A DNA stretch of 64,000 nucleotides from Candidatus Magnetomicrobium cryptolimnococcus (GTDB taxonomy: Bacteria > Nitrospirota > Thermodesulfovibrionia > Thermodesulfovibrionales > Magnetobacteriaceae): the NCBI GenBank assembly GCA_018606805.1, contig JAGYWI010000009.1:62001-126000 (forward strand). The letters run 5' to 3'. Positions 3,254 through 26,190 of this stretch are shown here, piece by piece. Positions within the stretch are counted from its first letter, which is position 1. Each line of letters begins with the position of its first letter. Below the pieces are notes generated by a model. That model was not told the origin of the DNA and searched no databases. It was given only the letters and a program-made list of their open reading frames with translations. The position numbers and the translations under genes were made by a program.

Positions 3254-3428
3254 GGTAGAAAAAAGAAAAAAAAAGAAAAAAAAAGAAAAGAAAAAGAAAA
3301 GAAAAAGAAAAGAAAAAAAAAGATAGAGGATGCGGGGGGAAACCCTTTTAGGCAAAAGGGTGTGTAGGCACACCTCCCTGTGCGTAGGCGCACTCCCCAA
3401 CCCCGCACCCTTTTTCCTAAAACTTTTA
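3252..3428 (+). repeat. Composite intergenic element: polypurine tract, hairpin and 22-mer units
   Basis: The sequence starts at the stop codon of the preceding gene with about 75 nt of nearly pure A/G. GATAGAGGATGCGGGG follows, then a small hairpin ACCCTTTT-AGGC-AAAAGGGT. Next come one exact 22-bp palindromic unit (3358-3379, core GGTGTG-TAGG-CACACC) and one GTGCG-TAGG-CGCAC unit (3380-3393). It ends with CCCCGCACCC and TTTTTCCTAAAACTTTT. Related elements lie at 11850, 14500, 20573, 31406 and 57908. Confidence 0.8.
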
Positions 3429-11849: not shown

Positions 11850-12060
11850 AAGATGCGTGGGGGAAAACCTTTTTCAAGGGTGCGAAGCCCTGTTCTTCCC
11901 CCACACCCCTTACGGGAGTGCGCCTACACCCCTTACGGGAGTGCGCCTACACCCCTTACGGGAGTGCGCCTACACCCCTTACGGGAGTGCGCCTACACCC
12001 CTTACGGGAGTGCGCCTACGCACCTTACGGGAGTGCGCCTACGCACTTCCTAAAGTTTTT
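11850..12060 (+). repeat. Composite element with six tandem 23-bp hairpin units
   Basis: The element begins GATGCGTGGGGGAAAACCTTTTT, as in the other composite elements, just after the cytochrome-porin stop. From 11903 to 12040 there are six head-to-tail copies of a 23-bp unit (ACCCCTTACGGGAGTGCGCC core); the last has GCACC for ACCCC. It closes with TTCCTAAAGTTTTTGG. Open frames run through it in all phases because the unit lacks stops, but none is a gene. Confidence 0.9.
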
Positions 12061-14499: not shown

Positions 14500-14625
14500 A
14501 AAAGTTTTTGGAAAAGGGTGCGGAGGCGCACTCCCTGTTCTGTGCGGAGGCGCACTCCCTGTTCTGTGCGGAGGCGCACTCCCTGTTCTGTGCGTAAGCG
14601 CACTCCCTGTTCTTCCCCAATGATT
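14500..14625 (-). repeat. Composite element with four tandem 24-bp hairpin units
   Basis: AAAAGTTTTTGGAAAAGGGTG is followed by four head-to-tail copies of GTGCGGAGGCGCACTCCCTG plus TTCT (14518-14613). The fourth copy has TAAG for GAGG. Each unit can fold on GTGCG/CGCAC. It lies between the convergent ends of the FG-GAP-like gene and the TPR gene, and is oriented opposite to the 11850 element. Confidence 0.88.
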
Positions 14626-19365: not shown

Positions 19366-19505
19366 ATACCCAAACAAATTAGGTTTGCAAGGCATTATTA
19401 AAAATAATAAGGAAACAAATACACAGTGAGGGCGCTACCCTCACACTACCGCCAAAGGGGCGTAGGCGCAAAGGGAGGTGTGCCTACACACCCTTGAACC
19501 CCAAA
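19366..19505 (+). repeat. Dispersed hairpin repeat (GTGAGGG family plus 22-mer)
   Basis: A 60-bp flank, TTTGCAAGGCATTATTAAAA and onward to ACACAG, also occurs nearly unchanged at 49305-49362. It is followed by GTGAGGGCGCTACCCTCAC (19426-19444), an imperfect hairpin, then ACTACCGCC, a GGGGCGTAGGCGC stretch, and an exact 22-mer on the minus strand (19472-19493). A 36-codon frame at 19321-19431 crosses it and ends in the repeat; I do not regard it as a gene. Confidence 0.8.
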
Positions 19506-19590: not shown

Positions 19591-20512
19591 ATGTCAAAAG
19601 AATACGACAAGGTTATAAAAGAGCTTTTAAAGGATACGGTAGCAGCTTTGCTTGAAAAGATTACAGGTGTAGACATAAGCAAAGCGGAGTTATTAGAACC
19701 GAAGCTGCAAATTACGGATGAACGTGAAGCTGACTTTATCTTGAAAGCTCAACTAAAGGATGGAAGCCAAGAGATTTATCACATAGAATTTCAAGGGTGT
19801 GTAGGCACACCTCCCTTCTACAAACGACAACAACATGGGCTATCGGGAACTGCGCTACTGGGTTTATCTACGGCAGGTTTATAAACTGCCTGTTAAACAA
19901 TATGTGGTTTATATCGGCAAAAAGCCTTTAAAGATGAAAAATACCCTTATGGAAGACAGCACAACCCACAGCTACACCATAATAGACATGAGAACAGTTG
20001 ATTGTGAAAAGTTCTTATATGCAGATAGACCTGAGGAGGTTATCATTTCTATATTGTGTGATTATAAGGGTAGAGATGTTCGAATGTTTATAAGGGAGAT
20101 ACTTGAGAGGATAAGGGAATTAGTAAAAGAGGAAACACTCCAAAGTAAATATATAAAACAATTGGAGATATTATCTAATTTACGAGATTTACAAAATTAT
20201 GTGGGCGAGGAGGTAGATAAGATGGCTTTTATATTTGATTTAACAAAAGATTATAGGTTTCAACAAGGTAGAGAAAAAGGCAGAGAAGAAGGAATGGAAC
20301 AAGGTAGAGAAAAAGGCAGAGAAGAAGGAATGGAAAAAGGGCTAAAAGAGGGTATCGAATTGGCTTTGGAAGTAAAGTTTGGCTTTGATAGTTTAGAATT
20401 AATTGAAAAAATCAAGGGTATCAGAGATATACAACAATTAGAAAATATAAAGGATATTATAAAAAATACAAACACGGTAGCTGAATTTATTCAAAAAATC
20501 ACAAAAGATTAA
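19591..20512 (+). pseudogene. Rpn-family (PD-(D/E)XK nuclease) gene broken by a 22-bp repeat insertion
   Basis: The first frame has the Rpn N-terminus (ITDEREADFILKAQL, YHIEFQ) with the nuclease residues Asp and ExQ. The second frame, from about 19817, has STNDNNMGYRELRYWVYLRQ, KLPVKQYVVYIG and the typical tail of charged GREKGREEGMEQ repeats. Removing bases 19795-19816 rejoins them exactly as YHIEFQ-STNDNNMGYREL, giving one protein of about 299 residues. The removed 22 bp is identical to the dispersed repeat unit. The Rpn family acts as recombination-promoting nucleases; this copy cannot be made full length without frameshifting. Confidence 0.88.
19795..19816 (+). mobile_element. 22-bp palindromic unit inserted in the Rpn gene
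   Basis: GGGTGTGTAGGCACACCTCC followed by CT. The unit folds as GGTGTG-TAGG-CACACC. Identical copies are at 3358-3379 (+), 19472-19493 (-) and 20625-20646 (+); a one-base variant is repeated four times at 26092-26187. Its length, 22, is not divisible by three, so it shifts the frame. Confidence 0.85.
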
Positions 20513-20572: not shown

Positions 20573-20739
20573 AAAGTTTTAGGTGCGTAGGCGCACTCCC
20601 GTAAGGTGCGTAGAAGAACAGGGAGGGTGTGTAGGCACACCTCCCTGTGTGCTGCCGCACCTCTTTTTCTCGAAAAGGGGTTTCCCGCCTACACCGTCTA
20701 ATTTTTTCTTTTTTTCTTTTTTTACTTCTTTTCTTTAAA
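20573..20739 (-). repeat. Composite element with 22-mer unit and polypyrimidine tract
   Basis: On the plus strand it reads AAAAGTTTTAGGTGCGTAGG, with a GTGCG-TAGG-CGCAC unit, an exact 22-mer (20625-20646), CTCGAAAAGGGGTTTCCCGC and a T/C-rich tail (20701-20739). It is therefore oriented opposite to the element at 3252. It separates the broken Rpn gene from gmhA. Confidence 0.78.
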
Positions 20740-26030: not shown

Positions 26031-26190
26031 AAGAAACAAATACACAGTGAGGGCGCTGCCCTCACACTCCCCGCCCAAGGGGCTTTGTCTCAGGGAGGTG
26101 TGCCTTCACACCCTTAGGGAGGTGTGCCTTCACACCCTTAGGGAGGTGTGCCTTCACACCCTTAGGGAGGTGTGCCTTCACACCCTTGAA
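26031..26190 (+). repeat. GTGAGGGC hairpin plus four tandem 24-bp units
   Basis: GAAACAAATACACAG, shared with 19410 and 49345, leads into the perfect hairpin GTGAGGGC-GCT-GCCCTCAC (26047-26065), then CTCCCCGCCCAAGGGGC. Four head-to-tail 24-bp units AGGGAGGTGTGCCTTCACAC plus CCTT fill 26092-26187. These differ from the 22-mer by one base and a 2-nt linker. The 430-nt gap between the kinase and the next gene holds nothing else I can name. Confidence 0.88.

Follow-up and report, generated by a model that had tools for sequence, protein, structure and literature searches.

The spread of very short palindromes such as REP, RPE and SDR has long been a question, mostly addressed through extragenic copies whose ends are uncertain. 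Cyanobacterial SDRs are repeats of 21-27 bp with empty sites that show their movement. In 2008, Elhai and colleagues reportedly inferred such very small mobile repeats from comparisons of filled and empty sites, some of them in genes. SDRs are also cited in PMC3116915. REP sequences of the GTAG and CGTC superfamilies are hairpins of 20-40 bp that occur in high copy number, mostly outside genes, as pairs and arrays; palindromes within genes have also been described, both REPs, some of them in genes for replication and repair, and RPEs (Di Nocera et al., 2013; PMC3733652). REPIN/RAYT hairpins are non-autonomous and are believed to depend for their movement on a Y1 transposase acting in trans (PMC3116915; PMC2817692). 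Rickettsia palindromic elements (RPE) lie in frame in protein genes, where the added peptides are tolerated.

The hairpin family described here is found in a metagenome-assembled genome (MAG) of Candidatus Magnetobacteriaceae (Nitrospirota; 3.59 Mb, 91 contigs, 98.5% complete; G000) and shares features with all of these. The DnaE encoded by the genome is closest to those of Nitrospirae / Candidatus Magnetobacteriaceae MAGs (63% and 60%). As in the GTAG and CGTC REPs, copies are numerous, mostly extragenic and often in pairs and arrays, with in-frame copies in genes for replication and repair (in this case dnaN, recD2 and a UvrD-like helicase gene). Short intragenic palindromes are already known, but this family differs in bearing neither REP tag. 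The unit consensus contains no CGTC and has no unpaired GTAG at its end; GTAG overlaps the stem-loop junction, and the tail reads TCCCT or TCCCGTAA. Nor are the units adjacent to a RAYT gene, the nearest being about 4 kb away. Non-autonomous hairpins in inverted pairs (47 of 240 clusters) recall REPIN/RAYT systems, yet these units insert singly and the RAYT goes with another, GTAG-tagged repeat. The resemblance to RPEs (in-frame palindromes missing in relatives, as in dnaN and carA) is one of description, the present unit having 21 bp, or seven codons, in a different phylum. Likewise, the resemblance to SDRs (a short repeat with filled and empty sites and copies in genes) is descriptive; here many filled/empty pairs lie inside one genome, and the host is a Nitrospirota bacterium. 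Unlike MITEs, type II units show no target-site duplication, and their net insert is 21-22 bp. A literature search found no paper on such repeats in Magnetobacterium.

The interrupted Rpn-type gene and its repeat family

The window, the whole 64,000-nucleotide stretch analysed (contig C91, positions 62001-126000), contains an Rpn-type gene split by 22 bp. The identical 22-mer, GGGTGTGTAGGCACACCTCCCT, was confirmed there and at three other places in the window. The features are as follows.

19591-19794, + strand: 5' part of the Rpn-type gene, 68 aa, stopping at the ExQ motif YHIEFQ; assigned to TIGR01784 through the joined protein
19795-19816, + strand: 22-bp insertion, a type II hairpin unit plus 1 bp; site empty in four paralogues
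19817-20512, + strand: 3' part of the Rpn-type gene, 231 aa, frame changed by the insertion
3358-3379, + strand: identical 22-bp unit in intergenic DNA; a type I unit follows directly at 3380
11918-12046, - strand: six type I units in tandem, repeating every 23 bp
14518-14603, + strand: four type I-like units in tandem, repeating every 24 bp
19472-19493, - strand: identical 22-bp unit upstream of the Rpn gene, within a larger composite repeat
20583-20605, + strand: type I unit GTGCGTAGGCGCACTCCCGTAA(G) downstream of the Rpn gene
20625-20646, + strand: identical 22-bp unit downstream of the Rpn gene, within a composite repeat
26093-26184, - strand: four type II units with the core GTGTGAAGGCACAC in tandem, repeating every 24 bp

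Removal of the 22 bp joins 19591-19794 to 19817-20512 and restores a single protein of 299 aa. As the original prediction had proposed, this is an Rpn-family protein, passing NCBIfam TIGR01784 with 54.6 bits (cut-off 52.1) and giving a sub-threshold match to Pfam PDDEXK_2. The separate halves of 68 and 231 aa matched no nuclease family in Pfam, PDDEXK_2 included. The insertion lies immediately 3' of the conserved ...HIEFQ motif, and its junction has a one-base ambiguity. The length of 22 bp stands, but the placement at 19795-19816 fits the empty paralogues less well. These read CAAG^CNACA, with a codon for Ala or Val, which makes 19796-19817 the likelier extent of the insert; its sequence is then GGTGTGTAGGCACACCTCCCTT, the 21-bp unit plus one T. 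This best placement, CAAG[GGTGTGTAGGCACACCTCCCTT]CNACA, lies one base to the right; the join at 19795-19816 gives Ser at the residue that is Ala or Val in the paralogues. The 22-mer had also been called palindromic, which is true of its hairpin, with a 6-bp stem (GGTGTG/CACACC), but not of its whole length, which includes the loop TAGG and the 5-nt tail TCCCT.

The 22-mer occurs in 38 exact copies in the genome and in 166 copies with up to three mismatches, against none for a reversed-pattern control. For its 20-bp core in the window, the chance expectation is 0 and none of 100 shuffles reached eight copies. The core GTGYGNAGGCRCAC has 448 exact copies in the genome, 19 relatives of the family have 0-1 each, and the 21-mer (up to two mismatches) has no copy among 100 relatives of the order. 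The exact 21-mer had no match in genome_contigs or viral_contigs, and the type I 22-mer had none in viral_contigs. Two subtypes make up the family. Type II has a length of exactly 21 bp, GRTGYGNAGGCRCACCTCCCT; type I has 22-23 bp, GTGCGNAGGCGCACTCCCGT(T)AA. In 1.35 Mb of sampled stretches, 381 units fall in 203 clusters, a figure that is not an unbiased genome density, since the stretches were partly picked around known copies. A looser set of 240 clusters comprises 134 singles, the 47 inverted pairs (+-) and direct arrays, most of whose periods are 21, 23 or 24 bp. The stems vary with compensation (GTGCG/CGCAC, GTGTG/CACAC, GTGTA/TACAC and GTATG/CATAC) and are fully paired at 216 of 532 tail-anchored sites, compared with 57 after shuffling.

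Three of four sampled relatives contained no repeat family of another sequence that was similarly abundant. The fourth (G006; L287-L291) has an unrelated repeated 14-mer, ATCAACGGGTCTAA, with 15 copies in 96 kb, perhaps an array. The only Rfam match on the window was a tRNA. Other repeats were seen in the sampled stretches. A larger hairpin repeat, CCAAAGGGACTCGTCCCTTTGG, occurs at L105:19401, L109:5319, L116:2746 and other places, with differing units occupying the same position in it, and a CRISPR-like array of 43 repeats of GTTTCAATTCCTCATAGGTAGGCTAAAAAC with a period of 66 lies at L089:195-2975 (C25). Unit density is highest, among stretches over 10 kb, in L083 (C5:64000-82000; 27 units per 10 kb), which adjoins an ORF resembling a phage portal (SU10_portal), itself with six units arrayed in frame, and is perhaps an old prophage or island.

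Filled and empty sites in the genome

A genome-internal comparison of filled and empty sites, as the original prediction had suggested for coding genes, revealed that clean single-unit insertions recur at many further loci. In total, 25 clean filled/empty pairs were found, each differing by one net single-unit insertion. The net inserts measured 21 bp in 13 pairs, 22 bp in seven (six of them the Rpn site, hereafter site A), 23 bp in two, and 20, 24 and 26 bp in one each. Because a number of the 21-bp inserts occupy the same site of a larger repeat (CCAAAG^GGAC), there were fewer than 25 independent events. The strongest case is a pair of duplicates on C5, with 120-bp flanks that are 100% and 99% identical (98% over 490 bp), which differ by one 23-bp unit. 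One of these two duplicates, but not the other, also has an exact 21-bp unit nested inside a type I-like unit. Such nesting of a 21-bp unit was found in five places, with type II at one exact position inside type I (L081:2982, L087:2775, L083:4605, L137:154 and L142:8840), and two of these sites mark deletions in Rpn copies.

Among the filled/empty pairs, no target duplication of at least 2 bp was seen at type II sites. Type I inserts vary in length by a few A and show one-base junction variation, and their ends are harder to delimit; their spread of 20-26 bp could hide duplications of 2-3 bp in A-runs. The units have a weak left-flank preference for CAAR: non-redundant type II left flanks have C at -4 in 16/28 and A at -2 in 20/28, and type I prefers AAG. 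For comparison with IS200/IS605-like elements (HUH Y1), which insert 3' of a short target without duplication, the observations here are an absence of duplication and a target preference that is only partial. The CAAR target is not reproduced in type II tandem arrays. Unit orientation had no association with GC skew (29/26 versus 23/16).

Within ORFs of at least 150 aa lie 28 of the 203 clusters (175 outside), as against 74% expected for random positions, a deficit that would be expected if most intragenic insertions had been purged. Proteins that bear units include RecD2, a UvrD-like helicase, hybrid kinases, DnaN and CarA. The only full dnaN gene in the genome (C5:97532-98785, equal to L121:15532-16785, - strand) contains a single 21-bp unit encoding REVCLHT and a second, larger in-frame array, and its product has 418 aa compared with 369-392 in relatives. 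As read from its gene, the sliding clamp DnaN carries a repeat-encoded peptide. Similarly, carA (C91:20075-20998, equal to L086:5076-5999, + strand) contains an exact seven-codon unit encoding AEVRLRT. Relatives were compared in alignments from which rows in the wrong frame or strand had been left out. Both dnaN insertions are absent from the readable relatives, one of which has its own, different insertion at the first position, and AEVRLRT is absent from all readable relatives.

Site A in the Rpn paralogues

Ten close Rpn copies, compared at 80-97% nucleotide identity, occur in the genome. Site A is empty in four of them (C16, C28 and two places on C27; L068, L071, L072 and L073), which read CAAG-CN-ACA or CAAGTAACA, and Rpn genes in relatives of other genera are uninterrupted there. 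The exact empty sites bear out the claim that the repeat unit itself, and nothing larger, was cleanly inserted. The other six, the window copy and those on C51, C42, C5, C39 and C25 (L069, L070, L078, L080 and L087), are filled with the identical 22 bp, including the same extra base. The original prediction would have been refuted by homologues with the 22 bp in frame at the same place, and five other paralogues, with the identical insertion there, come close to this. The claim of insertion nonetheless survives, as an ancestral in-frame segment is excluded by the existence of empty copies, by the filled copies not being one clade and by the frame shift that 22 bp causes.

Other Rpn targets were also used. 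Two 24-bp units follow GACAAG, 22 and 23 bp stand at GGCAA^AAAGCC in two copies, and 24 bp stands at GGATAAG^GG; in addition, there are one 21-bp insertion in reverse orientation and one 21-bp insertion upstream of a gene, and two Rpn copies have a unit-bounded deletion. In the genome as a whole, 42 Rpn matches were counted, many of them at contig ends, and up to 47 in relatives.

In a tree of the site A flanks (299 columns), a clade of the filled copies was rejected (lnL difference 51, p-AU 3.6e-6), and at least four changes between the filled and empty states are needed. Filled L080 is the sister of empty L068 (support 100/99); most of the remaining forks were not resolved. A single Rpn insertion with vertical inheritance is therefore rejected, with recombination as a caveat. 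The tree leaves two accounts: the same nucleotide was hit more than once, or recombination in short tracts spread the insertion.

That one copy was hit once and the insertion then spread among the paralogues by gene conversion or recombination, with no special attraction to the site, falls a little short of an even chance. It would account for the identical 22 bp and extra base in all six filled copies, and L078 looks recombinant, the 95 bp to the left of the site being those of empty L071 and the right side resembling filled L087b. Recombination among paralogues is thus visible around site A, and the insertion may have been carried in this way from one Rpn gene to another. However, the rejected clade and the L080-L068 sister pair weigh against such spread, and the tracts would need to be short, as differences between filled and empty near-sisters start 8-95 bp from the site. 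It would also explain Rpn only, neither the origin of the unit nor the other loci; recombination between Rpn paralogues cannot account for insertions in unrelated single-copy genes.

Selection is an unlikely reason for the site to appear hot, by retaining knock-outs of a potentially toxic nuclease just after the ExQ motif. Rpn proteins are reported to be toxic anti-phage nucleases, and Rpn to be a toxin with an internal antitoxin (PMC10327210). In its favour, unit insertions at three different sites break the frame or cause deletions in several paralogues, but selection alone leaves the one exact nucleotide position unaccounted for, and an intact paralogue has been kept (C16, a 313-aa open frame).

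Candidate routes of movement

A 21-bp unit is far too small to encode its own mover, and its mobilisation by some protein in trans, as first proposed, is plausible. Clean ends, the lack of flank homology and the lack of duplication lead us to infer enzymatic movement, which may proceed on a single-stranded form and through an HUH enzyme. The preferred reading, which we consider evenly balanced between right and wrong, is that the 22 bp is a recent insertion of a non-autonomous, ultra-short mobile hairpin moved by a trans-acting enzyme, with a Y1 HUH transposase as the leading candidate. The unit would insert as itself, in either orientation, 3' of A-rich, CAAR-like targets; it would not duplicate the target site and would add about one base at most. 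The single-stranded hairpin would most likely be copied and joined in trans, possibly by a Y1 HUH transposase of the RAYT type. Selection would then remove most intragenic insertions. Those that break the frame would survive where a gene is multi-copy and dispensable, as with Rpn; an essential gene would keep only inserts whose length is a multiple of three bases, and these add a short peptide (REVCLHT, AEVRLRT).

The only Y1 candidate found in the genome is a RAYT-like gene at C68:134345 (L128:9309-9900, - strand, equal to C68 about 134309-134900). It is the sole match to PF01797, at 20.7 bits, below the cut-off, and it scores 57 bits (cut-off 80) against the NCBIfam REP-associated tyrosine transposase; the match comes in two stretches, between which a GTAG-type repeat lies in frame (GADLCVCP...GRTHRFAPTG). 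REPs of the GTAGGGGCGAACC type lie inside and beside the gene, which holds or adjoins these and not the hairpin units, so the RAYT has another apparent partner, a GTAG-tagged REP. The presence of a RAYT as the cause of the units was rejected, as most relatives with Y1 genes have no units. Without an association with GC skew, a lagging-strand, single-strand mechanism lacks positive support.

A different trans-acting activity is a serious contender that we rate somewhat below an even chance. The unit could be moved by some integrase, or a hairpin fragment could be captured during repair of nicks or breaks, for instance those made by Rpn nucleases. No Y1 gene is linked to the units, Rpn matches are abundant, Rpn genes have been targeted repeatedly, and the one-base length variation at type I junctions resembles end-joining. 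Against this, type II insertions are nearly always exactly 21 bp, too regular for end-joining, and the relatives, with as many Rpn genes, have no units; Rpn abundance was rejected as a cause of the units on the same comparison.

Slippage or ordinary homologous recombination alone, the other route first suggested, is a very improbable source of the dispersed copies. The tandem arrays, with periods of 21-25 bp, probably do expand by slippage or unequal crossing over, but flanks of the dispersed copies are mutually dissimilar, and single units stand in unrelated single-copy genes that are cleanly empty in relatives. An assembly artefact of the MAG is scarcely credible: several Rpn copies do lie at contig ends, where repeats break assemblies, but units lie mid-contig in long contigs and in frame in single-copy dnaN and carA, and the six filled Rpn copies have different flanks.

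With about 25 filled/empty pairs in one assembly, including near-identical duplicates, exact ends, nesting and in-frame copies in essential genes, this genome allows unit boundaries, target choice and the lack of duplication to be measured, and candidate movers to be tested. It also illustrates how essential proteins come to gain short peptides from such DNA. A stronger possibility, which we hold to be rather doubtful, is that dedicated machinery inserts the 21-nt hairpin, as a discrete unit, at short targets that it prefers, repeatedly hitting one and the same nucleotide in paralogues and entering essential proteins in frame. If so, few mobile DNAs that insert independently would be smaller than these units, and the enzyme would be new to REP systems.
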